IMG/VR virus record: IMGVR_UViG_3300012001_000206
Span: 1 to 35,638 of that record
DNA from: a virus
Length of the DNA stretch: 35,638 nucleotides
Strand: one strand, 5' to 3'
Below, in pieces: positions 964 through 28,885 of this stretch. The translations under genes and the position numbers were made by a program. Below the pieces are notes generated by a model, which saw nothing but the letters and a program-made list of their open reading frames with translations, made no database searches and was not told the DNA's origin. Each line of letters begins with the position of its first letter. The first letter of the stretch is position 1.

Positions 964-1131
964 TTAGGGCGTTTTAGGCATGCGGGACTCAAGCGCCCTG
1001 ATCTTGTTAAAGGCAGTATCGAGCTGCTTATTCTTTTTGAAGTGGGCGTGCCCTAACCAGGTCAGATAGAGGATGACGAGCGGCGGCAGGTTCAGAAGGC
1101 GGGCGATCTCATTTATGAACTGGGGGTCCAT
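964..1131 (-). CDS. 55-residue single-pass membrane protein
   Basis: A short reading frame runs from ATG 1131 to TAA 964, with a purine-rich GGGAGGGA ribosome site upstream. Residues 12-27 are hydrophobic (LLNLPPLVILYLTWLG) and the rest is a basic, helical tail (FKKNKQLDTAFNKIRALESR). It ends eight bases before the next start, in the same direction. The layout of one membrane span and a charged cytoplasmic helix resembles small phage holin-like or accessory proteins. No homologue can be named. Confidence 0.55.
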   Translation of the reverse strand: MDPQFINEIARLLNLPPLVILYLTWLGHAHFKKNKQLDTAFNKIRALESRMPKTP

Positions 1132-1949
1132 TCCGTCCCTCCCGATACCGCTCCAGGTATCGGAAGAAACGGCCGTGGCTTTATTTCAAGCTCTCTCCCG
1201 GGACTCTTTCTGCTCCCGAGCCCAGGCGTCCTTCGTCGCTTAGGGCCTTCGGCTTGTGTTTCGTCCGCCTCGATGCCGGGATTATCGCCCGGCCGATCGC
1301 CGTCGTCTCGAACGGTCGCCCCTCTTTGGTGACGACCAGCCACGTCAATGCGAGGCAATTCACTACCGCCGAGAACGTCACGAGTACCAGAAACACCGTC
1401 AGCGCCGCGTCCATGATTTAGCCATTCTTCTCGAAGGATTGAATAGATGTGGGCGTCGATCCGCCGACCGTTCTTGAAGTAGAAATCCCGCCTCGTACCT
1501 TCCCACTTGAACCCGAGTCCCTCAAACATCTTCGCTGCCGGGTTCCCGTCGAATGTCTCACCATAGATGAGATGGAATCCATGGTTCTCGAAGCCGTGGA
1601 GGAGAAGGAGAGCGAGCGCCTTTTTCCCAATCCCCCTCCGTTGGCACCCTGGCGCGATATAGAGGCTAAACTCGGCACGTGAGTTCCGGTAGTCGATCGA
1701 CGTGAATCCACAGATCCCGACGACACTTGCCTTGTCGGATCCGTCCGAAAGCTGAATCCGATACATCTTTATCGTCGGATCCGAGGCCTGGCGCTTGAAC
1801 CATGCCTCCTGGTCGAAATCAGAGATCAGGTCGTTCTGACGGGTATACTGCCAGATGGCGTAGTCGTTCCGCCAGTGCCTGATCGTCTCAGCCAAGGTCG
1901 AATCGAGGGGGCCAAGCTCAATCTTGTAGGTCTTCGCTTCTTCGGTCAT
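1113..1949 (-). CDS. GNAT-family N-acetyltransferase (PseH-like), with an out-of-frame C-terminal extension
   Basis: The start is ATG 1949, which overlaps the aminotransferase stop (ATGA) and follows GGGAG. Residues 1-175 are a complete GNAT domain. It includes the acetyl-CoA P-loop segment CQRRGIGKKAL and the typical end DAHIYSILREEW. In this setting it probably acetylates an amino group on the sugar made by the neighbouring enzymes, as PseH does in pseudaminic acid synthesis. The open frame then continues for about 100 residues of Gly/Arg/Pro-rich sequence that overlaps two other genes. One base out of phase there is a TAA at 1418-1420, only 3 bases before the next start. The natural protein therefore probably ends near 1418 and the extension reflects an indel. 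The sugar substrate is inferred from context. Confidence 0.8.
   Translation of the reverse strand: MTEEAKTYKIELGPLDSTLAETIRHWRNDYAIWQYTRQNDLISDFDQEAWFKRQASDPTIKMYRIQLSDGSDKASVVGICGFTSIDYRNSRAEFSLYIAPGCQRRGIGKKALALLLLHGFENHGFHLIYGETFDGNPAAKMFEGLGFKWEGTRRDFYFKNGRRIDAHIYSILREEWLNHGRGADGVSGTRDVLGGSELPRIDVAGRHQRGATVRDDGDRPGDNPGIEADETQAEGPKRRRTPGLGSRKSPGRELEIKPRPFLPIPGAVSGGTEWTPSS
1142..1163. repeat. 8-bp inverted repeat (hairpin)
   Basis: CCGATACC (1142-1149) and GGTATCGG (1156-1163) are perfectly complementary with a 6-base loop. The hairpin lies in the short gap between the 1181-1414 gene and the 964-1131 gene, directly upstream of the latter's ribosome-binding site. There is no T-run, so it looks like an mRNA-processing or translation-control hairpin rather than a terminator. 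Confidence 0.5.
1181..1414 (-). CDS. 77-residue membrane protein
   Basis: Residues 5-28 form a clear transmembrane helix (begins MDAALTVFLVLVTF), followed by a basic, probably cytoplasmic tail rich in Arg/Lys and Gly. An AGAAGAA-like ribosome site precedes the ATG at 1414. The gene lies wholly inside the 3' extension of the acetyltransferase reading frame but in another frame. Its protein-like composition, against the Gly/Arg/Pro-rich noise of the overlapping frame, shows that this one is the real gene. Function unknown; a holin-like role is possible. Confidence 0.6.
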   Translation of the reverse strand: MDAALTVFLVLVTFSAVVNCLALTWLVVTKEGRPFETTAIGRAIIPASRRTKHKPKALSDEGRLGSGAERVPGESLK

Positions 1950-3151
1950 TTCTGCTCCCGCATTTTCTGGGCAAACGGACTCGTGGGCATTTCCCCCAAT
2001 AGCTCGACTTCCCCGCGCTTGATCCGACCGAGGATTGCCGTCATGGCAACGAGGGCGTTTTTTGCCTCCTCGATCAGTGGGTAATTCATCCAAAAAGACG
2101 GGCCGACCAGGATCCCGGCGCGGCAGCATTCCTGGAAGAACAGTGCTCGGGTGAGTTCGTCCCCTTTGAAGGCGGAACGGGACGGATAGCCCTCAAGCCA
2201 GATCTTCTCGGGATAGACATCGTTGAAGTCCTTCAGGAACTGCTCCCCGTTGCTCCAAAGCCAGGCTGTCGAATATTCGGTTTGGAGGAGCTTCATCGTG
2301 GCGATCGCCGCGGCTAGGGACAGGGTCTCCCCGGCATAGGTGGAACTCCAAAAGTACTCGGCGCAATTCATCACGTCGTACTTGCCGGCCACGCAAGCCA
2401 GGGGCATCCCACTCGCGATGGCCTTGCCGAGGCAGATCAGGTCGGGCGTGATGCCGTAGTGAGCCGAGACGGAATACGACGGGAATCGAAAGCCTGTGAT
2501 GATCTCGTCGAAGATGAGCATTACGCCGTGCTTTGTGCAATCCTCGCGGAGTTGGCGGAGCCAGGCAATGCGGTCTACGGACGTATCGGTGATGATGGGT
2601 TCGACGATGACAGCGGCGACCGCGTTATCGATCAACCTGTCGCCAAGCTTGTAGGTGTGAAGTCCAAGAGGAACACCGATGGCGGGCTGCGACAGGCTGA
2701 CGAAACTGTCGTGGGTTCCGTGGTATCCATCGCTGTAGACTTGGGTCCGACCCGTCTTGGCTCGCGCGATCCTGATCGCCGCCGAGCAGGCATCCGACCC
2801 TGTCTTCGTCCACTTCACCGCGTCGACGAACGGGAACAGCTCCTTCAACTTCTCGGCCGCATCGATCTCGACGTGGGTCCCGAGAGAGTGCGAGGCGCCG
2901 CTGCCCATCTGGGCGATGATCGCGGCGTTGACCTTAGGGTGGGCATAGCCGACCAGGTTCGTGCCGAGCGCAGTGACAAAATCTAAATATTTCTTGCCGC
3001 TGTGGTCCCACAGGAAGCATCCCTGTCCACTCTGGACGTGCGTGGGATAGACGCCCTTGACGAGCGCCTCGGGACGCTTGGAGTTCGTTAGGTAGGACTG
3101 GGCGATGCAGTCCTGGGCTCGGCGATGGAAATGCCATTGATCGTATTTCAT
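1946..3151 (-). CDS. class III PLP aminotransferase, glutamate-1-semialdehyde aminomutase-like
   Basis: The 401-residue protein is full length for the family. It has the PLP phosphate-binding region TGSDACSAAIRIARA (about 117-131), YHGTHD (143-148), FDEIITGFRF with Asp215 for the pyridine nitrogen, and LGKAIASGMPL with Lys243 as the Schiff-base lysine. The closest named family is HemL-type glutamate-1-semialdehyde aminomutase, but phages do not make haem. The gene sits between a CMP-sugar synthetase and an acetyltransferase, so a sugar or keto-intermediate aminotransferase role is more likely. It overlaps both neighbours by 4 bases. PseC and LegC are DegT-type enzymes, so a class III enzyme here is an unusual replacement. 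Confidence 0.85.
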   Translation of the reverse strand: MKYDQWHFHRRAQDCIAQSYLTNSKRPEALVKGVYPTHVQSGQGCFLWDHSGKKYLDFVTALGTNLVGYAHPKVNAAIIAQMGSGASHSLGTHVEIDAAEKLKELFPFVDAVKWTKTGSDACSAAIRIARAKTGRTQVYSDGYHGTHDSFVSLSQPAIGVPLGLHTYKLGDRLIDNAVAAVIVEPIITDTSVDRIAWLRQLREDCTKHGVMLIFDEIITGFRFPSYSVSAHYGITPDLICLGKAIASGMPLACVAGKYDVMNCAEYFWSSTYAGETLSLAAAIATMKLLQTEYSTAWLWSNGEQFLKDFNDVYPEKIWLEGYPSRSAFKGDELTRALFFQECCRAGILVGPSFWMNYPLIEEAKNALVAMTAILGRIKRGEVELLGEMPTSPFAQKMREQK

Positions 3152-3855
3152 ACGACATGCACCAATGTTTGTCCGTAAGTCATAATCGCGTCTCGATATT
3201 TTCCAGACGCTGATTCATAGGCATCGCGCACCCTTTCTAGGTCCTCCGGCGTGTCGACGGAAAGCTTGATATGGGCCTGATCGAAGTGATTGACGACGGC
3301 GCCGAACTTGGCCCAGAGCGGCGGATCTCTACGAGCCATGGTCGTGACGTGCTCCCTATCAGAAGGACTCACGGCTCGCTCGTGAAGCTCCTTCAAAAGC
3401 CTTGCAGAGATCACCTCGCAGTCGATCCCATCGAGCGATGTGCGGAAGCGCTCGTCTACGTTGGAGATATAGTCATAGGAGTGCTGCGCTGCCAGCGAGA
3501 CAATCCTGGAAATGACATAGGGCGGGATCATGGGGCAGTCACCAGTGATCCTAACGACATAGTCGGACTCGTAACGGTCAAGAGCCATCCGATAACGCGT
3601 CAGGACATCTTGCTCAGGGCCTTCAACGATGTCGCACCGATTGCCGAAGACTTCGACGATCGGGTCACCCTCTGGCGTAAGAACAGCGACGCGGATGGAG
3701 GTTTTCTCTCGTTGAGCGGTATAAGTTGCGGCCTTCTTGCAGGCCTCGATGACGCGGTCAAGCATCGTCTTACCGCCGATCAGCTCGAACGCCTTCCTCG
3801 GTAGTCTCGTTGACCCAGAGCGGGCCTGAATTCCTATCAGGATACGCTTTTGCAC
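3148..3855 (-). CDS. SpsF-like CMP-sugar synthetase (acylneuraminate cytidylyltransferase family)
   Basis: The N-terminal IGIQARSGSTRLPRK motif is the nucleotide-binding signature of CMP-KDO, CMP-NeuAc and SpsF-type cytidylyltransferases. QDVLTRYRMA and YVVRITGDCPMI are the SpsF-type motifs further on. The family joins CTP to an acidic sugar, giving CMP-sugar. I chose GTG 3855 because GGGAGGA lies just upstream; an in-frame GTG at 3867 is the alternative. It overlaps the oxidoreductase end by about 20 bases and the aminotransferase start by 4. Together with the NeuB gene at 24829-25779 it supports a CMP-nonulosonate product. Confidence 0.8.
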   Translation of the reverse strand: MQKRILIGIQARSGSTRLPRKAFELIGGKTMLDRVIEACKKAATYTAQREKTSIRVAVLTPEGDPIVEVFGNRCDIVEGPEQDVLTRYRMALDRYESDYVVRITGDCPMIPPYVISRIVSLAAQHSYDYISNVDERFRTSLDGIDCEVISARLLKELHERAVSPSDREHVTTMARRDPPLWAKFGAVVNHFDQAHIKLSVDTPEDLERVRDAYESASGKYRDAIMTYGQTLVHVV

Positions 3856-4448
3856 TCTTCCTCCCACCGCACAACCGCCTCGTGACTCTTGACGATCCGC
3901 TCGATGTCATCCCGAGGAGACGAGAGCCAATCTCTGATCATCCAGATATAGGCGTAGTCCATCTCCTCGATCTGGAGCTTTCGACCGTTGACAGAACAAG
4001 ACCAGACGGGGCTAGTGTTCTTTAAGACCGGCCTGGTCTCGGCGTGGGAAATGATCTGAATACAATCCCAAGCGAGGCCATCGTTTCCGGACTTGAAATA
4101 GTCCCAGTGGCTATCGCCCCAACTCTCGTTGTCGACCAGGTAGTCATACTGAGAGACCATTTGGATCCTGGTTTTTGCATCCCGGCACTCCGCCATGAGG
4201 TCCCGAAGAACACTAAGGTCCTTACATATCGGCTTTTCGCAGAGGATGGGCTTCCCCATGCTCTTGCATCGACGGACGATCTCGAAGTGTGTGTCGGTCG
4301 GCGTCGCTATGATGATGGCGTCACTTTCAGATGGGTGACCGACGCTTTCTTTGATGTCTTCGCCGTGGACCTCGTGGCCAAGGCTTTGGAGGATTGCACG
4401 ATACCTTCGGCCCATTCCACCATTGATTCCGTAGATATAGACGCGCAC
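3837..4448 (-). CDS. short Gfo/Idh/MocA-family oxidoreductase
   Basis: The protein has 203 residues and starts at GTG 4448, with GAGG seven bases upstream. It has an N-terminal Rossmann fold (YIYGINGGMGRRY) and the family's GKPILCEKP motif near residues 70-80. Family members usually have about 330 residues. Here the C-terminal substrate domain is cut down to about 110 residues, ending in a Trp/Glu-rich helix. A NAD-dependent oxidation, reduction or epimerisation of the sugar intermediate is likely. Short members of this kind also occur in bacterial flagellin-glycosylation loci, from general knowledge. The reduced size may mean altered substrate binding. Confidence 0.7.
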   Translation of the reverse strand: MRVYIYGINGGMGRRYRAILQSLGHEVHGEDIKESVGHPSESDAIIIATPTDTHFEIVRRCKSMGKPILCEKPICKDLSVLRDLMAECRDAKTRIQMVSQYDYLVDNESWGDSHWDYFKSGNDGLAWDCIQIISHAETRPVLKNTSPVWSCSVNGRKLQIEEMDYAYIWMIRDWLSSPRDDIERIVKSHEAVVRWEEECKSVS

Positions 4449-5317
4449 TGCTTGACCTCGTTCAAGACGATTGGACGGAGAAGATAGTGGAGCTCGGAGT
4501 CGGTATATTGCGGGCAGGTGTCGGACCGGAGGCAGCCGTTGTGGGTCGATTCGAGGACCTCATGGATCTTCTCGATCCCGCGGTGGCCAGTGATCTCGAC
4601 CTTGTAATCGTTGATCCCAAGGATTTTCGCGATCGTCTCTGCGATTCTTAGGACCTTTGCGCCCTTCAGCGGCGGGATCATGGCGCGCTCTTTCGCGGCA
4701 GTCGCGAAGTTGGCCAGCATAAACGCCCCGGCCGCCTCGATCGTCATCCAGAAGCGCGACATGCTGACGTCGGTCACATAGATCTTCCGCTCGCTGAGAA
4801 GGCTCGCGACGAATATCGGGATCACGCTGCCACGGCTCGCCAGAATATTGCCCCAATTGAAGACGCTGAAGTTGGTCGCAGACCGGACGTTAAGCGAGAG
4901 GAGATAGTTTTGCGCGAAGGCCTTGGTATAGCCGTAAGTCGTGATCGGCAGGACGGCCTTGTCGGTATTGGAGTAGACGACGTGGTCGACACCGGCTTCC
5001 ATCGCCTCCTCGGCAACATTGACGGCACCAAGGCAGTTGGTTTTGAGAGCCTCAAGCGGGTTTCTCTCCGCAGCATCAACGTGTTTCACTGCGGCCAGGA
5101 GAAAGACCGTCTCGGCGTTGCGCATCACTGGCGCTAGCGACGCTCTATCTCGTACGTCACCCAGGACATAGTTGAACTGGGGGAATTCCTTTTTCATTTC
5201 ATGCTGTTTGAACTCGTCCCGGGAAAAGATCGTGATCGGATAGGTAGATGTCTGCGAGAGCTGCCGCGCAAGCTCACGTCCTAGCGTTCCGGTGCCACCG
5301 ATCAGGACGATGCTCAT
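4307..5317 (-). CDS. PseB/CapD-type nucleotide-sugar dehydratase (extended SDR), 3' end displaced
   Basis: The N-terminus has the NAD-binding GGTGTLG motif (7-13) and the PseB-type segment FSRDEFKQHEMKKEFP. The catalytic set is Asp119-Lys120 (TDKA) and Tyr128-xxx-Lys132 (YGYTK). The family removes water from UDP-GlcNAc to give a 4-keto-6-deoxy sugar, the first step of pseudaminic acid synthesis. A GHRGIEKIHE segment matches the family's conserved GEKIHE region. Homology-like sequence ends at LLRPIV. The frame then runs 47 more residues over the oxidoreductase gene, while one base out of phase a TGA lies at 4462, 13 bases before that gene's start. The true end is therefore probably 4462. The start overlaps the previous stop. 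Confidence 0.8.
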   Translation of the reverse strand: MSIVLIGGTGTLGRELARQLSQTSTYPITIFSRDEFKQHEMKKEFPQFNYVLGDVRDRASLAPVMRNAETVFLLAAVKHVDAAERNPLEALKTNCLGAVNVAEEAMEAGVDHVVYSNTDKAVLPITTYGYTKAFAQNYLLSLNVRSATNFSVFNWGNILASRGSVIPIFVASLLSERKIYVTDVSMSRFWMTIEAAGAFMLANFATAAKERAMIPPLKGAKVLRIAETIAKILGINDYKVEITGHRGIEKIHEVLESTHNGCLRSDTCPQYTDSELHYLLRPIVLNEVKQCASISTESMVEWAEGIVQSSKALATRSTAKTSKKASVTHLKVTPSS

Positions 5318-5608: not shown

Positions 5609-6871
5609 TTAAGACACTTTGTGAATGCTTATATAGCGCTGCGCGGCTGCCAGCGTGCGCGTCGCTCCGCCACCGACAGCCGAGTCCATTCGAATTGCCA
5701 TCGTGTCTGCGGCTGCTAGGGCCACAATCGCCTGCACTGTCGCTGTCTGGTAGGAGTTTAGATCTTTCACGCGTTCACTGCGCACGATGGACGTATAGGC
5801 AGATCCGTTTTTGAACACGTTGAACGTCACGAGGTCTAGCGTTGTGGCGTTTGCTGAATATATCCAAGACACAGTAGCCATAATCATATAGTGCCCGGCT
5901 ACAGGTGCCGTGAAGGTGTCGGATGCGAAGTTTCCGCCAATATCGAATAGCTCGGTTCCAAACGTCACAAGTGCGCCGCCGTCCGCAGTCGCATTCACAA
6001 TCGTTTGGCTGCCAGTGGCGTAGGCGTGGACGCTGGGCTGCGATGTCTGGGTCCAGACCTGACCCGTCGATACCGTCGCGGCTACCGTGTTATTCGAGAT
6101 GATGTCGAGGTTGTGGCCGGTCGTCGTGCCGATCTGGGCGTTCACAGTCCCCGATGGCGACTTGACTACGGTCGTTCGTCCGGCCGGGTCGTTGACCGTG
6201 ACCGTCGCCGCCGTGCCGTTCACGCCGGAATCCACGAGCACGTCACTGTAAAAGACGTGCTGGGCAACGCTGGCGGAGACTCCGAGCGTCCAGACGCCAG
6301 TCGCGCCGACGTTGCCCCGCGCCACTCCGTTGGTCGAGAAGCCGATGATGTTTGCACCTACGCGGTAGATGCCCGTGCCCGAGCCGTCCGAGTCGCTCGT
6401 GAAGTTCATCGATGGGGCTGCGGCCGTGCCGTCTCCGATACCGATCGACGTCTTGTTCGTTAGAACGTCTGTCGTATCCTTGCCGACTAGCGTGCAGGTC
6501 GTCAGGGGCAGGGTGATCGTCAGGGCACCGGCCATAGCCGCGTTACCGACGATCTTAGCCGTCTGGGAGTTGGCGCCGAAGTAGGCGGCACGCAGGCCCA
6601 GGGTCGCCGAGCCGATGTCAACGGCGTTCGTCGTCTTGATCGGGATCGACGATGCGAGGCTTCCCGTGAAGGTGATGTCGTCAGCCGAGGCATCGCCGAG
6701 GGTGACTGCTCCCTTAAAGTTCGCAGCCCCGTTGCAAGTCAGGGCACTGATCGTCAGATCCTTCGTCCCATCCGTGACGCCGTTCAGGATGTCGTTATAA
6801 TTTTGCATGATTTGGGAGGCGTCGGCGGTGGCGCCGTTGACGAGCGAATACGTATATGACGGGGCAGCCAT
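5609..6871 (-). CDS. tail fibre/spike protein with C-terminal C1q-like domain
   Basis: The 420-residue protein starts at ATG 6871 behind AGGAG. Residues 1-30 resemble the N-terminal virion-attachment segment of podovirus fibres. Residues 30-280 are Gly/Ala/Thr-rich beta repeats (TLGDASADDITFTGSL and similar). Residues 285-420 match a C1q/TNF-like trimeric jelly roll: FDIGGNFASDTFTAPVAGHY, then VFKNGSAY, then a LAAADTMAIRMD strand. The C-terminal domain probably forms the receptor-binding tip. It is the last large structural gene before the sugar block. Attachment to the tail is inferred from order. Confidence 0.75.
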   Translation of the reverse strand: MAAPSYTYSLVNGATADASQIMQNYNDILNGVTDGTKDLTISALTCNGAANFKGAVTLGDASADDITFTGSLASSIPIKTTNAVDIGSATLGLRAAYFGANSQTAKIVGNAAMAGALTITLPLTTCTLVGKDTTDVLTNKTSIGIGDGTAAAPSMNFTSDSDGSGTGIYRVGANIIGFSTNGVARGNVGATGVWTLGVSASVAQHVFYSDVLVDSGVNGTAATVTVNDPAGRTTVVKSPSGTVNAQIGTTTGHNLDIISNNTVAATVSTGQVWTQTSQPSVHAYATGSQTIVNATADGGALVTFGTELFDIGGNFASDTFTAPVAGHYMIMATVSWIYSANATTLDLVTFNVFKNGSAYTSIVRSERVKDLNSYQTATVQAIVALAAADTMAIRMDSAVGGGATRTLAAAQRYISIHKVS

Positions 6872-13831: not shown

Positions 13832-14475
13832 CAGAACGCCCCGATGATCGTGACTGGCATCGTTTCTTCGTCAAGCACGTGATTGAAGCTGTCACCACGC
13901 AGGAATTTCTTCTCGTAGCGTTTCGCGTCAGAAAGCTTCTTGGCCCACGACTGCCCGTACTGAGATCCGGCCTGGAAGTTCTTCTCCTTGTTGCACATGT
14001 TCATCAGGAGGTAGTCGGCAAGATCGAGGTGATAGCGCGTCGGAACATCGAGCGTCGTCGTGGAGGACACGATCTGCGGTAGGTCATAGGTATAGATCTT
14101 GAGAGTCAAAGCGCCGTCGGGGACCGGCCTGAGTTCGATCGCCGTATCCCATTCCCAATAGTATTGGGGCGCCCCCGTTGCCGTCGTCGCCTGGTTGAAC
14201 ATCGTCAGGGCGTCGTCTTCGCGGTCGGTGATCTTGAAGATCTTCTGACCGTTATAGGTAATGCGCTTGATCGACATCGCCGCCGTTGGCTTCTGGTATT
14301 CCTGCTGTCCGATAACGGTCGACGTGGAATAGACCCGACGGATGCAATAGGTCTCTCGCGCGAGCTGCACCTGCGCATCCCAGATCAGCGTGTAAAGCTC
14401 GGAGTCAGAGAAAAAGGTGTCCGTGACAGCGTTGTAGCGCTGGCGGGCATAGGTGACGAGATCTGTAGGGGTCAT
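13831..14475 (-). CDS. head-tail adaptor protein
   Basis: The protein has 214 residues and begins MTPTDLVTYARQRYNAV, followed by FFSDSELYTLIWDAQVQLAR. This N-terminal helix pair is typical of gp6/gp4-like connector adaptors that dock under the portal. The C-terminal half has DLADYLLMNMCNKEKNFQAG and then a basic helical tail, also usual for the family. The position just before the nozzle-like gene fits. It follows the preceding gene by one base. Confidence 0.7.
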   Translation of the reverse strand: MTPTDLVTYARQRYNAVTDTFFSDSELYTLIWDAQVQLARETYCIRRVYSTSTVIGQQEYQKPTAAMSIKRITYNGQKIFKITDREDDALTMFNQATTATGAPQYYWEWDTAIELRPVPDGALTLKIYTYDLPQIVSSTTTLDVPTRYHLDLADYLLMNMCNKEKNFQAGSQYGQSWAKKLSDAKRYEKKFLRGDSFNHVLDEETMPVTIIGAF

Positions 14476-14476
14476 G

Positions 14477-14941
14477 TCAGCTCCAGACGGTCGTGCCAGC
14501 CGTCGCGGTCGACCAGGCGGCGGCCGCAGAGGCGGCCTGGGTCCAGGTAGGGTTTGACCGCAGAGTCAGGTCGGTCACTGCCTCGGGGAAGACCCGGAAG
14601 TAGTTGTTCGGGTCCTGGATATAGGCGTGCTCCAGGATGTCAGAAGATGTCAGGGTCTCTGAAAGGCCGATTCGGTGCTGGAAGTTGACCGTCGCGCCCG
14701 CTGGCAGGATCGTCTCGCCAGCCAGGAGGTGGACGAAACGCCAGTTGATGGCTGCGGTCGACGCGACGCTCAGGTTGGTGGGGTCAACCGCCATCCGAAT
14801 AGTCTTCGGAATCGTGTTCGTCCCGTCGCCCCATTTGAAGGCGTTCCAGTTGTATGCCGCCCACTTGTCAGTAGGAGCGCCACCGAACGTCACGATGGCG
14901 GCGGACATCGTCATGCTGTATGCCGTCACCGCCGCCTCCAC
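14477..14941 (-). CDS. minor structural protein
   Basis: The protein has 154 residues, is rich in Ala, Thr and Trp, and looks beta-sandwich-like (WRFVHLLAGETILPAGATVN). I do not recognise the family. The gene lies directly between the preceding structural gene and the adaptor with no gap, so it is probably a virion component or an assembly cofactor. ATG 14941 abuts the upstream stop. Confidence 0.5.
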   Translation of the reverse strand: MEAAVTAYSMTMSAAIVTFGGAPTDKWAAYNWNAFKWGDGTNTIPKTIRMAVDPTNLSVASTAAINWRFVHLLAGETILPAGATVNFQHRIGLSETLTSSDILEHAYIQDPNNYFRVFPEAVTDLTLRSNPTWTQAASAAAAWSTATAGTTVWS

Positions 14942-15397
14942 TCATCCGATTGTGATCTGCAAAACGGCCGTCAACGAATCGTTGGCGCCCTTGTTGATGA
15001 CGGTCTGAACAGTCCGCGACAGCATCGTCCCGACCGAAGCGCTCGAGAGCAGGCCGTACTCGACGATGGCACCTGTCCCCGTCCCGCTCGGGAAGGTAGC
15101 CGTGACGACATACATCTGGTTCGAGACATAGGAGGCAGTCCCGGTCTGCCGGGCCAGTTCGCCACCGAGTGCCGTCTGGGCGGCGGCCTCAGCAGTCAAA
15201 TCGGTGCCGATGGCGACGTACTGACATGTGAAGGTCGACGCCGCCAAAGCCGCCGAATAGAGGAAAGAGCTTAGGAACTCCTTCCCGTTCGTGCAGATGA
15301 CGTTCGGGCCTTTGACGACCTGCTTCACGACGCCGCCAGATTCGAGCGTGGCGGTCCACTGGCCCTTCATCGTGATGCCGGGGTAGACCGTCTCCAT
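14942..15397 (-). CDS. minor structural (tail or head) protein
   Basis: The protein has 151 residues. A beta-rich start (GQWTATLESGGVVKQVVKGP) precedes NVICTNGKEFLSSFLYS, and the C-terminal part is Thr/Val/Gly-rich. Proteins of this sort, with a conserved NxxxxNG loop, are found among phage structural genes, but I cannot name the family. It sits within the unbroken run of structural genes and touches both neighbours. Confidence 0.55.
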   Translation of the reverse strand: METVYPGITMKGQWTATLESGGVVKQVVKGPNVICTNGKEFLSSFLYSAALAASTFTCQYVAIGTDLTAEAAAQTALGGELARQTGTASYVSNQMYVVTATFPSGTGTGAIVEYGLLSSASVGTMLSRTVQTVINKGANDSLTAVLQITIG

Positions 15398-16489: not shown

Positions 16490-17500
16490 CTAAAAAAGAA
16501 TTTTTTTGGTAGTCGTTAAGGGATTCTCGCACTGGTCACGCATCTCCTCGCACATGCTATACATGGCGAGAAAATCCTTGAGGTCCATCTGCTTAACCGA
16601 GCGGATATTCCCGCCGCTGTAAGCGCCCCAGGTTCCACCCTCGGTGCAATTCACCCAGAAACCAGGGATGGACTCGGCGACCCAGTCAAACCAGGCCTTG
16701 AAATTCGAGTAGGAAGGCCACGTTTTGACGCAGTTCCCGAAAACATCCGTTGTTTTCTGGTAGCTGCCGAGGTCCTTGTCGTACTTCGAGTCCCATCCGT
16801 GGAACTTCTCGAGATACGAGAAGGCGAAGTTCGCCCCCATGAGCGCAATGGGGTTACAGCCGAATATCGCCTTGGCGATATACATGCTGGCACCGAGGAC
16901 GTTGCCGCCGGTCGAGACGAACGTGTTGAACACCTCGATGGCGTCCATGTCCGCGACCAATTTCGGGTCGGGGATGGGGCAGTTGAAGAAATAGATCTCG
17001 CCCTGCCATTTCGCGAGGAGACCTGGATCTGAGGCAATGTGAGCCAGGAGCACTTTGCCTTTGGTAAGTGCCCAGTAATCCCTTTTCGCGTCCCCGCCCT
17101 CAGCCACTTCCTCGATCGTGACCGGTCCGGCATCGAGGCTGACGTAATAGTCGACCTTGACGCCGGTATCCTCGAGGAAATGGAAGTTGTGGAGGCACGA
17201 GATGACCGGAATACCGGGGTTCTTCAGGAGATCGGCCGCATTGTCTTTGAGAGAAGGACCGGAGCCGACGACGATTGCCGGAAGGTTTCTGAAACGTCCG
17301 AACAGCTTGCCGATGCCCCGATCCTTAAAAGGTCCGAGTTTTGCGTGGTTAGCCTTCGCGTTCCTCAGCCAAATATCCCGCCATAAATTGATCGTCGGTC
17401 CGTCGTTGCTTGAGGCCTTCCCGTAAAGGTCGTTCCTCGCAACGGGCGGATGCTCAATGTATGGCTGGTATTCGCAGATGATTTCTTGACGTCTAACCAC
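16490..17500 (-). CDS. DUF115/MptE-like, Maf-type glycosyltransferase
   Basis: The core PAIVVGSGPSLKDN (about 74-87 of 336) is the signature of the DUF115 (MptE-like) domain shared with Maf flagellin glycosyltransferases, and GSGPS forms the nucleotide-binding loop. Downstream come YYVSLDAG (Asp123) and a second conserved block, STGGNVLGASMYIAKAIFGC followed by NPIALMGANFAFS. Maf enzymes transfer nonulosonic acids from CMP to Ser/Thr of surface protein. The gene follows the decoration and capsid genes, as maf genes follow flagellin genes in bacteria. GTG 17500, preceded by AAGGA, is preferred over the longer frame from 17551, which overlaps the upstream gene. MptE-like pterin kinase activity is the alternative. 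Confidence 0.75.
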   Translation of the reverse strand: MVRRQEIICEYQPYIEHPPVARNDLYGKASSNDGPTINLWRDIWLRNAKANHAKLGPFKDRGIGKLFGRFRNLPAIVVGSGPSLKDNAADLLKNPGIPVISCLHNFHFLEDTGVKVDYYVSLDAGPVTIEEVAEGGDAKRDYWALTKGKVLLAHIASDPGLLAKWQGEIYFFNCPIPDPKLVADMDAIEVFNTFVSTGGNVLGASMYIAKAIFGCNPIALMGANFAFSYLEKFHGWDSKYDKDLGSYQKTTDVFGNCVKTWPSYSNFKAWFDWVAESIPGFWVNCTEGGTWGAYSGGNIRSVKQMDLKDFLAMYSMCEEMRDQCENPLTTTKKILF

Positions 17501-17513
17501 GCGATTCGAATCC

Positions 17514-17996
17514 TTATCCGTAGCAGGTGATGTAGGCCGCTCCCGAGGCACTCGACACGATCGCCGAGATGGCCTGGCCGAAGCACAGACCGTTGCCGGT
17601 CGTGTTCGAGGCGCCGTAGAAGTAGCCGTTGGCTGCGAGCTCGAGGTTCTGGCGCGCCACGACGGTTCCAGACGCGGTCATCATTTTGACCGTGCCGATG
17701 CCGCGGACAAGGACCCAGGCATAGGCCGCAGTGGCGAATGTCGCGTTCTGCACGACGCCGATGGCGAAGTCCGAGCTGGTCGCCGCCGAGACTGTGACCG
17801 AATAGCCCGTAGCCGCCGAGTTGAGTACGACCGCGCAGCCGACTGGAGCCGAAGCGCCGCCGTCGTTGTAGACGAAGACCCAGCGTTTGCCGCCCTCCTC
17901 GCAGAAGTCGCCGAGTGCCGGGTCATTCACGCCGAGCGCGGTCGTCGTGAAGGAGGTATTTGCCATCCGAACCGGTGAGATGCTTTCGTTAGCCAT
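17514..17996 (-). CDS. capsid decoration protein
   Basis: The protein has 160 residues and starts at ATG 17996 behind AAGGAGG, one of the strongest ribosome sites in the operon, which suits an abundant product. It is Ala/Gly/Ser/Thr/Val-rich and beta-dominated (SDFAIGVVQNATF, then YAWVLVRGIGTVKMM, then a small-residue tail). Placement directly after the major capsid gene fits a head decoration or cement protein. Its many Ser/Thr residues and its place right before the Maf-like gene make it a good candidate sugar acceptor. Confidence 0.65.
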   Translation of the reverse strand: MANESISPVRMANTSFTTTALGVNDPALGDFCEEGGKRWVFVYNDGGASAPVGCAVVLNSAATGYSVTVSAATSSDFAIGVVQNATFATAAYAWVLVRGIGTVKMMTASGTVVARQNLELAANGYFYGASNTTGNGLCFGQAISAIVSSASGAAYITCYG

Positions 17997-18016: not shown

Positions 18017-18940
18017 TTAGGCTGCGACGGCCGAGAATTTGCCGTGCATACGGTTGTTGTCCGAGCCGAAGATCCCCATCCAGTAGACCTTGGCGACCTT
18101 GACGTTCTGGTTGATCGGCTTCGCGAACGGCTCGAAGCGCATGTCCTCGTCCTTATGCGCGCCGAGGTGCAGGTAGCCCTCGTTGAGCATAAAGATGTGG
18201 CTCGCAGGAACCTTGGCGCCTGCGATGAATGGCGTCCCGTTGAACATCAGGCTGGAGAAGCCACCCTTGGCCGACTCCGAGTCCTGGAAGCGCTGCTGCG
18301 GCTGGAGGAGCGCATAGTAGCGGTTATAGTTCGCACGAGTCGCCATGATGACGGTCGGCTGGTCGTTGTTGATGCAGAGGTTCTGATACATCGTCTGCAA
18401 CGCGGCCATCGTCAGCGTCGTCGTCGCCGAGTCGAGCTGCGACTGCCACCACGAGTATGTCGACTGGCTGATGCCGCCGATCGTACTCGTTTGGCTCACG
18501 ATGGACCGGAGGCCGACGATCGACTTGGCGTTCGTGCCAGAGGAGTAGATGCCGTCGCCCATGATGTCGATCATGGTCTTCTCGGCAATCTGGGTCTTCT
18601 GCTTCACGAAGTTCAAGATCTGGGAATCACCAGAGTTCTTGAGTTCGTCGGAGCGAAGGATCGTGATGTTCGCGTACTCCTGCTTCCAGGAGTACTCGGC
18701 GCCCGTCATGACGTCGTTGTCGGTCGTCGAGAGCGTGTCGGCGCCCGAATACCAGCCCGCCGCCGTCGTCAGGGCGTAGTTGAGCGGGTAGATGACGGTC
18801 GTGCCGCCATCGAGCTTCTCGTACCAGCCCTTTTTCTTCGCCCGCTGCAGGATCGGGTCGGAGTCAAAGACGTTGTCGATCAACTTCGGAATGAACTTGC
18901 GCTCGGTGATTGCCGAGATCTGGTCATAGGTCAGTGCCAT
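18017..18940 (-). CDS. major capsid protein (HK97 fold)
   Basis: The protein has 307 residues. It begins ALTYDQISAITERKFIPKL followed by IDNVFDSDPILQRAKKKGW, an N-terminal arm typical of coat proteins of this class. The middle holds a dimer/insertion region (EYSWKQEYANITILRSDELK, then GDSQILNFVKQKTQIAEKTM). The C-terminal part has the HK97-like beta strand GTPFIAGAKVPASHIFMLN. Scaffold upstream and decoration protein downstream confirm the role. No protease is seen nearby, so processing is uncertain. Confidence 0.85.
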   Translation of the reverse strand: MALTYDQISAITERKFIPKLIDNVFDSDPILQRAKKKGWYEKLDGGTTVIYPLNYALTTAAGWYSGADTLSTTDNDVMTGAEYSWKQEYANITILRSDELKNSGDSQILNFVKQKTQIAEKTMIDIMGDGIYSSGTNAKSIVGLRSIVSQTSTIGGISQSTYSWWQSQLDSATTTLTMAALQTMYQNLCINNDQPTVIMATRANYNRYYALLQPQQRFQDSESAKGGFSSLMFNGTPFIAGAKVPASHIFMLNEGYLHLGAHKDEDMRFEPFAKPINQNVKVAKVYWMGIFGSDNNRMHGKFSAVAA

Positions 18941-20363: not shown

Positions 20364-20392
20364 ATCGTAATGGCGCGTTAGTTGGTGGTCAA
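20364..20392 (-). promoter_or_regulatory. possible sigma-70-type promoter for the scaffold-capsid genes
   Basis: On the leftward strand TTGACC (20387-20392) and TACGAT (20364-20369) are separated by exactly 17 bases, in an AT-rich gap of about 100 bases between the HNH gene and the gene starting at 20284. The -35 box matches 5 of 6 consensus bases and the -10 box 4 of 6. The -35 box overlaps the HNH stop. It could boost transcription of capsid genes. Untested and based on consensus only. Confidence 0.4.
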
Positions 20393-20838
20393 ACTTTATT
20401 CACTCTCCCCATGGCGCGATACTTGGCCATCCGGGCTCTGTTTCCATCCCTTGTGCACGTTCGGCAGTATCTGCCGCCGCCATTACGGACCCCGTCCAGT
20501 AGATGGCCTTTGTGGCAGCGGTCTTTCCGGGAATTTATGGCACCTTTGCCCTGTCCTCGAAGGACATTCTCGCGCTGAGTGACCGCTTCAAGATGGTTGG
20601 GATTGACGCAATGTCGGACTCGGCACAAATGATCGATGTGGAGGCCGTCGGGTATTTCTCCAACGAGCATTTGATAAACCAAACGATGGGTATAGAGCTG
20701 TTTCGCGGCCCCGTTTATTGGTGGTCCGGCACGCATACAACCATAGCCAGCGGGGGTTTTCGTCCCTTGCCAGAGCCAGCAGCCGCCAGGATGAAAGGTC
20801 ACTTTCTTCCAAATCTTGTCGATGGTCGCATTACTCAT
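20389..20838 (-). CDS. HNH homing endonuclease
   Basis: The protein has 149 residues. The HNH nuclease motif is clear: THRLVYQMLVGEIPDGLHID then HLCRVRHCVNPNHLEAVTQR, with His67/Asp69/His70, Asn79 and His82. The C-terminal part has Cys108, His112, Cys125 and Cys128, a likely zinc site and DNA-binding module. The gene sits between the portal and head genes and overlaps the portal stop by 4 bases. An AT-rich tail follows it, which is common for a recently inserted free-standing homing gene. No intron boundary is visible. Confidence 0.85.
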   Translation of the reverse strand: MSNATIDKIWKKVTFHPGGCWLWQGTKTPAGYGCMRAGPPINGAAKQLYTHRLVYQMLVGEIPDGLHIDHLCRVRHCVNPNHLEAVTQRENVLRGQGKGAINSRKDRCHKGHLLDGVRNGGGRYCRTCTRDGNRARMAKYRAMGRVNKV

Positions 20839-23332: not shown

Positions 23333-23489
23333 CGTCCGGCTCCATCCTGACGTCTTCCCACTCCCGCACGACCTCGCCAAAGATCACGTTGGCTTTGTAG
23401 CAGACCTGGAGGATTCGCCGGCCTTGGCGGTCGACGAAGCGGATGTCGAGGATGTTCCCTAGGTCGCTCACATCTTTCACGCTGTCCAT
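23325..23489 (-). CDS. 54-residue hypothetical protein after the large terminase
   Basis: ATG 23489 overlaps the large terminase stop, and TAA 23325 overlaps the next start. The sequence is a compact beta-like fold (NILDIRFVDRQGRRILQVCY) with an acidic end (REWEDVRMEPDDG). The overlaps on both sides and ordinary amino-acid composition support it. Function unknown. Confidence 0.55.
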   Translation of the reverse strand: MDSVKDVSDLGNILDIRFVDRQGRRILQVCYKANVIFGEVVREWEDVRMEPDDG

Positions 23490-24790
23490 TTCTCCGATCC
23501 CTCCCTCGATTTGCGTTTGAGGCGCTCGAGCCGTTGATACTGGTCTTCCTGCTTCTTCTCGTCCGGGCTCTGCGGCTTTCTCTTGGTCATGCCGCGGCGT
23601 GTCATCATTGACACATACCTATTGGCGTCCATTGAGTGCTCGTTTTGCTTGACGGGAGTCTGCTCCTTTATATCTCGGTCAGGAGCTACGTCCAACTTCT
23701 CCTCGGGCCAATGGTAGCTCTCGTACTCGTCGATCGTATGCGGAGAAGTACCGCGAAAGACCTTGTAGCGCCTGGTTTTGACAAGCTCGTAGTGAACGTC
23801 GATGCCAGCCTGAATGCTGTTGTCGGCTGGGATGCAAGTCAATCCAGCCTCGTTGAAGGCCTGGATCGCCTCGGGGTATGAGGGGTCGGCGTAGAACGAC
23901 TTCACGCCAAAGATCGCCTTCGCCTGGCGTCCGACCTCAATCTTCTGGGCCATTGTTTGCGTCGTCCTATAGAACTCGAACGTCTGAAAGTGCTTGTCGT
24001 CAGGCGTGATGCCACGGACCACGAGCGCGAATGGATTCGTCCAGCCCCAGTCGATTCCCCCGTGAAAGACGGAGCCCGTCGGCAGCGTGAAGGGTTCGCA
24101 GACGTTCTCGTCGTCATCAAAGCAGTCATAGACCAAGCCCGTCATCTTTTCCCAGATGCCGCCGAACATGGCCCGGAAGCGTCTCGGATCCATGGTCAAC
24201 CTGGCATGATCGACGGAGGCTTTCGGGAAAAGCGGGTTCTCCCAGCTTGCGGCCTGAATTAGCTCCACGTCTGGGCGTGAGAAGCGGTCTTTCATGATGG
24301 GCTTGACGATGTCTTTGAATAACCAGTTGAGAGCGTAGGGGCTGGACGTTAGGTCGATAGGGCAGTCTCGAAATGCAGCTCTAGCGATGGCGTTCTCCCA
24401 GAAATATAGGGAGACTTTTCCAGCTTCATCGATCCAAATGTGACGGACATTCGTGATACCGACGATTGAGTCCGGCTCCGTCGCCGTCCGAAAGTAGCAG
24501 ATTCCCCCGCCCTTAACGCGAAAGGTGGCGTCAACCTTGTTATAGGTTCCGCAGCCATCCATGATCTTGAGGAACGCTGGAAGCGTCGACTGTTGCATGA
24601 TCTTGTAAGTTGGGGCGGCAACGACAAAGGCGTCATCTTCGGACGTGTAGGTATGCATCGCAATCTTCATGCGGACTGCGCCAACAGTTGACTTACCGAA
24701 CTGGATGCCGCTTAAGAGCGCAACGATCTTGGCCTTCGAAAAGACGGCTTGATCCTGCTTCAGAGAATGCGGAGCCCAGTCGCTAGACAT
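23477..24790 (-). CDS. terL: terminase large subunit
   Basis: From ATG 24790 (GAAGGA upstream) the 437-residue protein has Walker A LLSGIQFGKST (26-36), Walker B HIWIDEAG with Asp121-Glu122, and the RNase H-like nuclease acids GGIDWGW (Asp247), YADPSY (Asp302) and DANRY (Asp387). It pumps DNA into the head and cuts the concatemer. An in-frame GTG at 24835 would add 15 residues but overlaps the NeuB gene. A basic, charged C-terminal tail (RLERLKRKSREGSEKW) ends it. Confidence 0.9.
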   Translation of the reverse strand: MSSDWAPHSLKQDQAVFSKAKIVALLSGIQFGKSTVGAVRMKIAMHTYTSEDDAFVVAAPTYKIMQQSTLPAFLKIMDGCGTYNKVDATFRVKGGGICYFRTATEPDSIVGITNVRHIWIDEAGKVSLYFWENAIARAAFRDCPIDLTSSPYALNWLFKDIVKPIMKDRFSRPDVELIQAASWENPLFPKASVDHARLTMDPRRFRAMFGGIWEKMTGLVYDCFDDDENVCEPFTLPTGSVFHGGIDWGWTNPFALVVRGITPDDKHFQTFEFYRTTQTMAQKIEVGRQAKAIFGVKSFYADPSYPEAIQAFNEAGLTCIPADNSIQAGIDVHYELVKTRRYKVFRGTSPHTIDEYESYHWPEEKLDVAPDRDIKEQTPVKQNEHSMDANRYVSMMTRRGMTKRKPQSPDEKKQEDQYQRLERLKRKSREGSEKWTA

Positions 24791-24828
24791 CCAGGTATTT
24801 CCTTCATGTTGAAACCTCCGGAGCCCTT

Positions 24829-25779
24829 CTACCACAAGACTTTCATGATTGGATCGCCACGCTTCACGGCCTCGCGTATCGCCTTACCGTGAGCCTTCTC
24901 CCAATCGAAAGGGCTCATGCCCTTCGTGTCGTCGACAAGAGAGCGGTACGCCCCGAAGTTGACGCCGTAGACAAGCTTCTCGCCCTTCTCGATGTCCCGC
25001 GTGGCGAGCAGCCTCCGGTTGTGGCGCTTGACCATCGCGTCCTCCTCGTACGTCGGCCCTATCATCGGTTCCTTCTCGCCACGGATATGCTGGACCATGA
25101 GCTTGAACTCCCCTGGGTCGAGGCTATGCGGCCTGTCAGGCGTGTCGAGTTCGGGGTACGCGGTGAAGTGCTTCTCGAGCACCGTCGCCCCCGCCTTGAT
25201 TGCAGACAGAGGCGTCTGAATGATGTCGGTCGTATGGTCGGAGAACCCGATGCCAGCAACTTCGAGCATGTCGAGTTTCTTCATCACGCGTAGGTCGACT
25301 GTCCGGGCCGGGTAGGATGCCACGCAGTAGAGCAGCGTAGTCCTCGCAGCGGCCGACCCGAGGCAGTCCAGGGACCGTTCGATCTCGTTGTAGGTCTTCG
25401 CCCCGGTGCTGAGGAAGATCGGCTTACAGGTCTTTGCTACGGCTTGCAGGAGATGCGGATAGCAGGCGTCCGAACTCGCGATTTTATGCGTGCTGACGTA
25501 GGGGTTCACGATTTCGACAAGATCGGGGCTGAAGGCGGTGCACATGAAGTCGATGCGGCAGGAGTCAGCTTTGTCTTTGAGGGCGGGGATCCACTCGGTC
25601 CGTAGGATACCGAACATCCTAGTGCAGGACCTGTTACCGCTCCCATAGAGCGCATCATGATCGAAAGCTTGGAACTTGACCGCGTCCGCGCCGGATTCTG
25701 CCGCAGCTTCGATCGACCGCAGGCAGTGCACGAGGGTCTCCCAGTTGGATCCGACCTCGGCAATCAGGTATGGCTTCAC
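24829..25779 (-). CDS. neuB: NeuB-family nonulosonic (sialic-acid-like) synthase
   Basis: The protein has 316 residues and starts at GTG 25779, overlapping the small terminase stop (GTGA). The TIM-barrel NeuB domain starts YLIAEVGSNW and contains GADAVKFQAFDHDALY, THKIASSDACY, IFLSTGAKTYNEIE, GFSDHT and GATVLEKHFTAYPEL. The C-terminal SAF (antifreeze-like) domain is LLATRDIEKGEKLVYGVNFG followed by KAIREAVKRGDPI. The enzyme condenses phosphoenolpyruvate with an N-acylated hexose to give sialic, pseudaminic or legionaminic-type acid. It lies between the two terminase genes, 20 kb from its partner genes but in the same late operon. Confidence 0.85.
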   Translation of the reverse strand: MKPYLIAEVGSNWETLVHCLRSIEAAAESGADAVKFQAFDHDALYGSGNRSCTRMFGILRTEWIPALKDKADSCRIDFMCTAFSPDLVEIVNPYVSTHKIASSDACYPHLLQAVAKTCKPIFLSTGAKTYNEIERSLDCLGSAAARTTLLYCVASYPARTVDLRVMKKLDMLEVAGIGFSDHTTDIIQTPLSAIKAGATVLEKHFTAYPELDTPDRPHSLDPGEFKLMVQHIRGEKEPMIGPTYEEDAMVKRHNRRLLATRDIEKGEKLVYGVNFGAYRSLVDDTKGMSPFDWEKAHGKAIREAVKRGDPIMKVLW

Positions 25780-28092: not shown

Positions 28093-28542
28093 GTGATCAC
28101 CTCGCCTGCTGGCATCGCTTTGATCAAAAGCTTCGAAGGCCTCCGGCTTGAGGCCTACCAGGACCAGGTCGGCGTCTGGACGATCGGCTACGGGTCGACT
28201 CGCGGTGTAAAAGCTGGGGACAAGATCACGGAAGGCGAGGCCGTCGCGCGGCTGGTCGACGATCTTCAGGGGGCTGAGGCGGGAGTCAGGCGGCTCGTGA
28301 CCGCGACGCTGACCCAGCCCCAGTTCGATGCTTTGGTAAGTTTTGTCTTCAATCTCGGTGCGCCGTCTCTGGCGAGTTCGCAGCTGCTTCGGCTTTTGAA
28401 CAGCGGCAAGGCGAGCCTAGCGGCCGATGAATTCCCGAGGTGGGTGCATGCGGGGGGCGTCGTGGTTGAGGGGCTTCGGCGGCGTCGGCGGGCCGAACAG
28501 GCGCTTTTTCAAGGCCTGAGATATAATATGCATACGGACTAG
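28093..28542 (+). CDS. T4-type lysozyme endolysin (GH24 family)
   Basis: The start is GTG 28093, with GAGGAG seven bases upstream. The 149-residue protein has the T4 lysozyme catalytic triad with exact spacing: Glu15 (SFEG), Asp24 (YQD) and Thr30 (WTIGYG), matching E11/D20/T26 of T4. TQPQFDALVSFVFNLG and LRRRRRAEQALF-like segments complete the fold. It cleaves peptidoglycan to release progeny. The gene runs opposite to the late operon and has no partner holin next to it. No SAR or signal sequence is visible, so a separate holin is expected. Confidence 0.85.
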   Translation: MITSPAGIALIKSFEGLRLEAYQDQVGVWTIGYGSTRGVKAGDKITEGEAVARLVDDLQGAEAGVRRLVTATLTQPQFDALVSFVFNLGAPSLASSQLLRLLNSGKASLAADEFPRWVHAGGVVVEGLRRRRRAEQALFQGLRYNMHTD

Positions 28543-28648
28543 CCTTACCGGCTACTAATGACCTGTAATTCCTTGTTAATACAGAATTAGGTAAAGTTCT
28601 GCACTCCCATGTCGATATGTATGATATATGGCGGACGGGAGGACGACT

Positions 28649-28885
28649 TTGCCGACGGTCATGAAAATCGGAAGCATCAAAATCTATGTCTATGCCGATG
28701 ATCACAACCCTCCGCATGTTCATGTTCTGCATGCCGATTGTTCTGCGGTCATCGAGATAGAAACCGGCACCGTCGTCAAGCACCGGGGATTTAAGGCGTC
28801 GGAACTAAAGATTTTAGTGCGCACGATATCGGCCAACAAAGAGGCCCTGCTCGCCGCATGGGAGAGTCTCAATGAAGACGAGTAA
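28649..28885 (+). CDS. DUF4160 protein, candidate toxin of a toxin-antitoxin pair
   Basis: From TTG 28649, with GGGAGGA upstream, the protein has 78 residues; ATG 28628 would add 7. The family pattern is clear: PTVMKIGSIKIYVYADDHNP followed by PHVHV, then a WESLNEDE end. DUF4160 proteins usually pair with DUF2442 proteins in toxin-antitoxin-like operons. Here the partner is BrnA-like. The gene overlaps the next by 14 bases. Toxicity is inferred from family and pairing. Confidence 0.65.
   Translation: MPTVMKIGSIKIYVYADDHNPPHVHVLHADCSAVIEIETGTVVKHRGFKASELKILVRTISANKEALLAAWESLNEDE

Follow-up and report, generated by a model that had tools for sequence, protein, structure and literature searches.

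The uncultured phage represented by IMG/VR record IMGVR_UViG_3300012001_000206 (positions 1 to 35,638; this entire 35,638-nucleotide stretch is referred to here as the window) probably makes a CMP-activated nonulosonate (NulO) and uses a Maf-like transferase to add this sugar to its own capsid, by means of a core module of late genes. A kit of six sugar enzymes, together with a transferase gene located beside the capsid genes, suggests that the phage coats its own shell with a sialic-acid-like sugar. Gene identity, catalytic motifs, co-inheritance and gene order are established, as are the folds of the transferase and of a capsid decoration protein.

Sugar genes within the late structural operon

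Seven genes, all on the minus strand, make up the module (Table 1). The sequence-only reading had assigned five of them (i.e., those for a dehydratase of PseB type, a short Gfo/Idh oxidoreductase, an SpsF-like CMP-sugar synthetase, an aminotransferase of class III [AT3] and a GNAT acetyltransferase) to a block at 1113-5317, and had placed a NeuB gene and a Maf-like gene in the same late operon. Pfam matches were obtained for all five block proteins, and positions and Pfam matches likewise agree for NeuB and Maf. The NeuB gene lies directly upstream of the terminase gene, the ORFs sharing 7 bp, and this order is found in 32/37 loci of the phage family; the Maf-like gene lies directly downstream of the capsid genes. 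Homologues of the C1q-like gene that precedes the block also precede the sugar block in relatives, i.e., the position of the block is conserved. Contamination or misassembly as the source of the sugar genes was ruled out, since they recur at the same places in numerous independent contigs. The window yielded no tRNA, no Rfam match, no useful promoter signal and no long terminal repeat.

Table 1. Features of the window discussed in the text
Feature	Position	Strand	Support
GNAT N-acetyltransferase, PseH-like	1113..1949	-	PF13302 Acetyltransf_3, 6.6e-12
Class III PLP aminotransferase (AT3), glutamate-1-semialdehyde-aminomutase-like	1946..3151	-	PF00202 Aminotran_3, 1.2e-46
SpsF-type cytidylyltransferase, proposed CMP-nonulosonate synthetase	3148..3867	-	PF02348 CTP_transf_3, 7.9e-23
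Short Gfo/Idh/MocA-type oxidoreductase, 203 aa only	3837..4448	-	PF01408 GFO_IDH_MocA, 5.7e-12
PseB/FlaA1/CapD-type UDP-HexNAc 4,6-dehydratase	4307..5317	-	PF02719 Polysacc_synt_2, E 3.9e-65
C1q-like fibre or head protein, precedes block	5609..6871	-	C1q, 5.5e-4, below cut-off
Maf-like glycosyltransferase (putative), catalytic domain only	16490..17500	-	PF01973 MptE/Maf, 4.5e-19
Capsid decoration (cement) protein, candidate glycan acceptor	17514..17996	-	AlphaFold model, pLDDT 77.7
Major capsid protein (MCP), second candidate acceptor	18017..18940	-	phrog_9953 major head protein, 9.3e-59
Terminase large subunit	23477..24835	-	phrog_2, 1.1e-37
NeuB-family nonulosonate synthase	24829..25779	-	PF03102, 2.5e-50, and weak SAF domain

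Family membership and catalytic motifs of the sugar enzymes

Motif conservation was counted in alignment columns across relatives. The PseB-type protein, for which FlaA1 (2gn4, 4.9e-44) was the top PDB match, has a D-K-Y triad (TDK...YG..K) that is kept in 20/20 relatives, as is the EKP motif of the Gfo/Idh protein (20/20). The NeuB-family protein matched SpsE, NeuB and Pse synthase structures (1e-25 to 1e-19), its metal His motifs SDH and EKH being present in 21/21 aligned relatives, and the PLP lysine (CLGKAIASG) and DEIITGFR motif of AT3 were retained in 22/23 family members. The SpsF-type protein carries QARSGSTRLPRK and RITGDCP motifs and has cytidylyltransferase 6oew as its top PDB match; in B. 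subtilis, SpsF performs the last step of CMP-legionaminic acid synthesis (PMC7439481). The GNAT ORF runs from a start codon at 1949 to its end at 1113, with the domain confined to the first ~177 codons (about 1418-1949); its last ~100 codons overlap, in another frame, an ORF for a small membrane protein that is present after GNAT in relatives too.

None of the window's proteins scored as high as NCBIfam requires for any named NulO equivalog. More specifically, the PseB-type protein scored 196 bits against TIGR03589 (cut-off 408) and 38.7 bits against the LegB dehydratase model TIGR04180 (cut-off 475); the top match of GNAT, PseH (TIGR03585), gave 52.9 bits (cut-off 93.1); the NeuB-family protein scored 154/340 bits for PseI and 173/400 bits for NeuB, both under the cut-off; and the SpsF-type enzyme scored just 16.7 bits for PseF (TIGR03584; cut-off 205.7). 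The sugar enzymes are thus family members and not certified Pse enzymes.

Recurrence of the module across a phage family

The Maf-like protein is encoded in about 140 IMG/VR contigs, and family GC content spans 38-66%. All seven genes were present in 18/22 family contigs of at least 32 kb and, when contigs of at least 32 kb were selected by Maf or capsid alone, in 13/15. Selection by the capsid protein alone recovered Maf in 18/19 contigs, the 19th of which stops before the Maf position. Among 50,697 annotated phage records there were 0 close Maf relatives. The nearest isolates by capsid protein (Mx8 and Bradyrhizobium and Stenotrophomonas phages) are just 31% identical, and a Maf match is absent in one of them. 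Single-protein pattern scans were too narrow, giving no confirmed relatives for NeuB among viral contigs or for AT3 among genome contigs; the distant relatives of both that were missed in this way were recovered by alignment searches.

Distances among Maf, SpsF, NeuB and Gfo sequences correlated with those of the portal protein (r 0.63-0.76), those of AT3 tracked the portal weakly (r 0.30, p 0.05), and the AT3 sequences of the family formed one phage clade (support 100/99). Because gene set and order recur, motifs are kept and AT3 forms a single clade, the seven genes are, as judged by sequence comparison, a module that belongs to the core of an uncultured phage family, rather than a chance assortment or one-off cargo. 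The joint pathway, which the sequence-only reading had offered as conjecture, is now strongly supported by the occurrence of the set in these long relatives, by the kept motifs, and by SpsF, AT3 and NeuB being neighbours or fused in cells. In one phage, G002, the sugar block is lost, Maf is kept and AT3 is broken, indicating that the route is not always phage-encoded.

A proposed route with AT3 in place of PseC

We infer the individual chemical steps, the exact sugar, its transfer, the acceptor and the benefit, and the route would run as follows. In the host cytoplasm, the PseB-type enzyme would dehydrate UDP-GlcNAc to a 4-keto-6-deoxy sugar, which AT3 would aminate in PseC's stead, and GNAT would acetylate the newly made amine. 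The sugar would be released from UDP by a host activity or by the short Gfo/Idh protein, whereupon NeuB would condense it with PEP to the nine-carbon nonulosonate and SpsF would activate the latter to the CMP-sugar. Finally, as particles assemble or beforehand, the Maf-like transferase would place the sugar on Ser/Thr residues of the decoration or major capsid protein. The benefit may be charge or shielding, receptor mimicry, or particle stability.

Neither PseC (DegT, PF01041) nor PseG (TIGR03590) was found in the family records (0/26 for each), versus 14/14 and 7/14 control genomes, respectively. The earlier description of a nearly full route therefore holds only with replacements for both, i.e., if AT3 replaces PseC and another activity replaces PseG. 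Among 39 other phage NulO loci, 18 carried AT3 only, 17 a PseC-type enzyme only, 3 both and 1 neither (Fisher 3.5e-7; 7e-5 after clustering), and in phage block L088, whose set otherwise equals that of the window, a DegT enzyme stands where AT3 would be. That the two enzymes are largely exclusive in other phages suggests that AT3 does PseC's job. We know of no class III aminotransferase that acts on UDP-sugars. An ordinary GSA aminomutase of haem synthesis was ruled out, since AT3 is always accompanied by NulO genes.

AT3 might instead act late and in partnership with SpsF, aminating the nonulosonate or its CMP form (e.g., to an 8-amino sugar), which we regard as somewhat unlikely. Such a role would fit the cellular loci examined, in which SpsF lies beside AT3 in 22/22 cases and PseC is also there in 6, as well as an SpsF-AT3 fusion in Ignavibacteria and the 8-amino-5,7,8,9-substituted nonulosonate of Flexibacter maritimus (PMC3210612); some cellular NulO clusters carry AT3 on top of PseC. 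Late amination is disfavoured by L088, with its DegT enzyme in AT3's place, and by the finding that phage NulO blocks seldom carry AT3 together with a PseC-type enzyme.

Replacement of PseC by AT3 also has to be weighed against a host-dependent route, in which the phage gives some steps, host PseC and PseG finish, and all hosts are nonulosonate makers. This we consider unlikely, although both enzymes are absent in 26/26 family records, G002 keeps Maf without a sugar block, and cellular clusters of Methanoregula (L067) and Ignavibacteria (L069) with SpsF and AT3 also have PseC and PseG. Relatives with GC contents of 38 to 66%, and hence presumably diverse hosts, retain this set of six enzymes and show identical gaps, and a DegT enzyme occurs in other phage blocks without AT3, which is what a phage-supplied aminotransferase step would predict. 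For PseG, the host may still make up the lack.

A Maf-like transferase beside the capsid genes

The Maf-like ORF is open to 17551, and its homologues begin near 17500. The PF01973 score of the protein was 69.3 bits (cut-off 34.6), and its sole PDB sequence match was 5mu5, a Magnetospirillum Maf. This structure was also the best fold match (E 8.6e-9, TM 0.50) of the AlphaFold model, which is of medium confidence (pLDDT 79.7), followed by human ST8SiaIII sialyltransferases (E ~1e-4); the model also matched the M. jannaschii HPPK 8sd5, an MptE kinase (E 4.5e-4, TM by target 0.53). Phage Maf proteins are about 336-338 aa long, essentially the catalytic domain alone, and the domains that flank it in full-length Maf (5mu5 chain, 632-666 residues) are absent. 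The Maf-like protein is proposed to be a nonulosonate transferase to a virion protein.

The upstream neighbour of the Maf gene encodes the decoration protein (S+T 18.8%), whose model matches decoration or head-fibre proteins of Pam3, phi29, HFTV1, T1, TW1, Sf11 and XM1. The order MCP-decoration-Maf was kept in 62/62 informative loci, with Maf always between the capsid-decoration genes and the tail genes; the putative protein glycosyltransferase gene thus lies in the structural region, as expected for phage-encoded virion glycosylation. Virion glycosylation, already suggested from the window alone, is strengthened by this adjacency and by the Maf and decoration folds, and it is still something that we infer.

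It is well established that phages can carry sugar genes that bring about serotype conversion, and NulOs are typical host surface sugars. Serotype-conversion genes of phages are also named in PMC12619734. These points would accord with the nonulosonate being attached to LPS, capsule or flagellin at the host surface, rather than to the virion, so as to exclude other phages or change the host. We consider this improbable, given that the genes lie within the late structural operon, with Maf between capsid-decoration and tail genes throughout, that Maf1 of Aeromonas caviae is a cytoplasmic transferase of pseudaminic acid whose target is a protein, flagellin (PMC4065374), and that Pfam scans of part of the window's ORFs named no flippase or lipid-carrier transferase. 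The MptE-like Pfam name and the 8sd5 match might imply that the PF01973 protein is instead a 6-hydroxymethylpterin diphosphokinase of the MptE type and that the NulO genes serve free sugar or host glycans. This is highly improbable, because 5mu5 is the only PDB match of the sequence profile, 5mu5 and CMP-binding sialyltransferases top the fold ranking, and PF01973 recurs with NulO blocks in other phage lineages.

Relation to known systems

The proposed capsid modification by the phage's own Maf has a close counterpart in Maf-dependent decoration of flagellin with pseudaminic or legionaminic acid (A. caviae Maf1; Magnetospirillum Maf 5mu5): both combine NulO genes with a cytoplasmic Maf-family transferase, and in both the Maf gene adjoins one that encodes a surface structure of high abundance and symmetry. 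The phage differs in that its Maf consists of the catalytic domain only (336 aa versus 632-666 in 5mu5) and is encoded beside capsid genes, and in that its pathway is without PseC and PseG. The sps genes of B. subtilis (CMP-legionaminic acid; SpsC, D, E, F, G and M) share with the phage an SpsF-type cytidylyltransferase, the NeuB-type SpsE, an acetyltransferase and UDP-linked precursors; they include the PseG-like SpsG and SpsM, whereas the phage has AT3 and Gfo/Idh, with no PseG and no DegT. L067 and L069 likewise hold PseB, SpsF, AT3 and NeuB in one cluster (and Gfo/Idh in L067), with SpsF and AT3 adjacent or fused; unlike the phage, these cells add PseC and PseG, and no capsid genes are nearby.

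To our knowledge, glycosylated virions are known for few phages only. Mycobacteriophages (Che8 and relatives) are a case in point (Freeman et al. 2023, cited in PMC12691614, PMC12619734 and PMC11256854): as these citing papers relate it, glycans are found on capsid or tail proteins and putative glycosyltransferases are phage-encoded, as is the transferase of the window phage, and these papers describe no NulO pathway or Maf. Unlike mycobacteriophages, the window phage encodes a proposed route to the activated sugar that is kept across its family. A search of the literature available to us turned up no paper that deals with a nonulosonate pathway encoded by a phage or with a Maf protein of phage origin.

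We tentatively extend this reading to the family as a whole, whose capsids may carry sialic-acid-like sugars made by a compact, phage-evolved route that is undescribed in cells, with AT3 for PseC and no PseG (its place possibly being taken by the short Gfo/Idh protein), and to parallel NulO-Maf kits in other phage lineages. Other lineages do pair PF01973 (Maf) with NulO blocks, some with PseA-like and HisF-like genes.

Both a putative NulO pathway and a Maf-like gene appear to belong to the core gene set of a family represented by about 140 contigs. Should the proposed reading hold, there are bacterial viruses with sialic-acid-like coats, a finding that would bear on immune recognition of phages, on particle charge and on environmental persistence, as well as on the working of AT3-containing NulO clusters in cells; the exchange of AT3 and PseC yields a directly testable prediction for the AT3 enzyme family.

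A nonulosonate gene set within the structural operon

The 35,638-base IMG/VR virus record carries a single, long structural operon on the minus strand. A sequence-only reading had claimed a five-gene nonulosonate (NulO) block at its low-coordinate end; the block proved real, as all five genes were located and matched to their Pfam families. All genes of the sugar set exceeded Pfam cut-offs by a wide margin, and none of their proteins reached an NCBIfam equivalog cut-off, so the exact sugar is not readable from sequence. Gene ends overlap within the block, which suggests translational coupling.

Features of the window
Feature	Position	Strand	Remarks
GNAT	start 1949	-	block 1113-5317
Class III aminotransferase (AT3)	1946-3151	-	
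SpsF-type cytidylyltransferase	3148-3867	-	
Short Gfo/Idh	3837-4448	-	
PseB-type dehydratase	4307-5317	-	
NeuB	24829-25779	-	overlaps terminase gene by a few bases
PF01973 (Maf/MptE-like) gene	about 16490-17500	-	after capsid genes
Upstream neighbour of Maf	17514-17996		conserved
Small membrane-protein ORF (holin or spanin-like)	1113-1430		out of frame over 3' third of GNAT ORF; similar protein also after GNAT in relatives
HNH homing-type endonuclease ORF	20392-20838		adjoins portal gene; most relatives have none at that spot
35-bp repeated segment	10421-10824		inside neighbouring small structural ORFs with common N-termini (MSGV..PQ); possible gene duplication

The seven genes recur as a core set across a phage family

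All records compared are metagenomic. A capsid-protein search blind to the sugar genes yielded 19 related contigs, 18 of which carry the Maf-like gene, the 19th stopping before that place; a Maf-profile search matched 142 contigs, of which 80 were kept. The order capsid, decoration protein, Maf was found in 62/62 loci with room for it, and NeuB lies ahead of terminase in 32 of 37. When long relatives were mapped with profiles, all seven genes were present in 18 of the 22 records of at least 32 kb (the window included, and counting relative G036 despite its broken or divergent NeuB), and in 13 of 15 relatives picked by Maf or capsid alone. Two of the 22 (G021 and G034) are cut inside the block by the contig end, NeuB was undetectable by profile mapping in one (G037), and in one (G002) the block is gone except for part of AT3 that has no PLP lysine. 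GC content of the relatives spans 38 to 66%, and their hosts are therefore probably diverse.

In G002, this AT3 remnant, whose middle region is missing too, lies at 28140-29090 (L047/L048), and Maf is kept, which reads as a case where the pathway was lost naturally and the transferase stayed. In-frame TAA stops occur in NeuB of G021 (14281-15246) and Maf of G008 (L009), and NeuB of G036 is split; these may be sequencing error, real decay or recoding.

Conservation of catalytic motifs is evidence that the genes work: TDK..YG..K of PseB (20/20), DE..G.R and the PLP lysine of AT3 (22/23), SDH and EKH of NeuB (21/21 aligned), EKP of Gfo (20/20), and QxR and R(I/V/L)T.DC of SpsF (every aligned sequence). 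Pairwise distances correlated with those of the portal protein for Maf (r = 0.75), SpsF (0.76), NeuB (0.64) and Gfo (0.63), more weakly for GNAT (0.42) and PseB (0.38), and weakly for AT3 (r = 0.30, p 0.05). In the AT3 tree, the entire phage family forms one clade (support 100/99), separate from cellular sequences.

The Maf-like transferase and its candidate acceptor

The sole PDB sequence match of a 13-sequence Maf alignment was Magnetospirillum Maf (5mu5), which also ranked first by fold (E 8.6e-9) against a medium-confidence AlphaFold model (pLDDT 79.7, pTM 0.82), followed by human ST8SiaIII sialyltransferases with CMP-sialate or CDP and then archaeal HPPK. The phage protein consists of the Maf catalytic domain alone. 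The medium-confidence model of its upstream neighbour resembles capsid decoration or head-fibre-base proteins. Maf1 of Aeromonas attaches glycan to flagellin in the cytoplasm, through direct binding to it (PMC4065374); by analogy, the predicted glycan acceptor here is the capsid or decoration protein.

AT3 as a putative substitute for PseC

Neither PseG (TIGR03590) nor DegT/PseC (PF01041) was detected in any of 26 family records; the same models detect their targets in control genomes. SpsF catalyzes the last step of CMP-legionaminate synthesis in B. subtilis (PMC7439481). In cells, AT3 goes with SpsF, being near it in 22/22 loci read and near NeuB in 19/22. AT3 adjoins SpsF in an archaeal cluster (L067) that also holds PseC and PseG; in an Ignavibacteria cluster (L069) with PseB, PseC, PseG, PseH and PseI, the two are fused. 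Transposase-like genes on both sides of the L067 cluster (Methanoregula MAG; 5875-6669 and 14702-15235) suggest its horizontal transfer.

Among 39 loci from other phage lineages, all with NeuB, PseB and SpsF, 18 carry AT3 only, 17 a PseC-type enzyme only, three both and one neither (Fisher p 3.5e-7, related loci not being independent; 7e-5 over 30 clusters). Phage L088 has the window's gene set with a DegT enzyme where AT3 would be, and a longer Maf. This near-exclusion and swap favour AT3 as a PseC substitute in phages. PseG is missing from 33 of 35 phage NulO blocks; the host, or another phage enzyme such as Gfo/Idh, could replace it. We infer the enzyme order, product, acceptor and benefit.

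Other NulO clusters

Other, separate phage lineages with NulO blocks include L088, L112, L115, L087, L093, L097, L099, L103, L109, L111, L117 and L128, and some such blocks also hold a PF01973 Maf gene. Many combine a DegT aminotransferase with PseA/WbpG-like and HisF-like genes (12/17 DegT-only versus 0/18 AT3-only loci), suggesting that DegT-type blocks make acetamidino-type nonulosonates. L307, L313 and similar Ignavibacteria/Bacteroidota clusters encode SpsF, a split transketolase pair, AT3, SDR, a KdsC-like HAD phosphatase and a NeuB-like synthase, with PseB, PseC and PseG not found there; this gene content would fit a 9-phosphate (KDN-like) amino-ulosonate pathway that is as yet undescribed.

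Relation to known systems

Mycobacteriophages are known to have glycosylated virions (Freeman et al. 2023, cited in PMC12691614, PMC12619734 and PMC11256854). Our search, outside which subscription journals and preprints lay, turned up no publication describing either a NulO route encoded by a phage or a Maf from one. Among 50,697 annotated phage records, none matched the window's Maf and three, all distant, matched its NeuB. The pairing of NulO with Maf is already known for flagella. Phage capsid glycosylation is known; new, as read from the genes and with glycosylation itself putative, would be the sugar class, the transferase and a phage-encoded, family-wide route.
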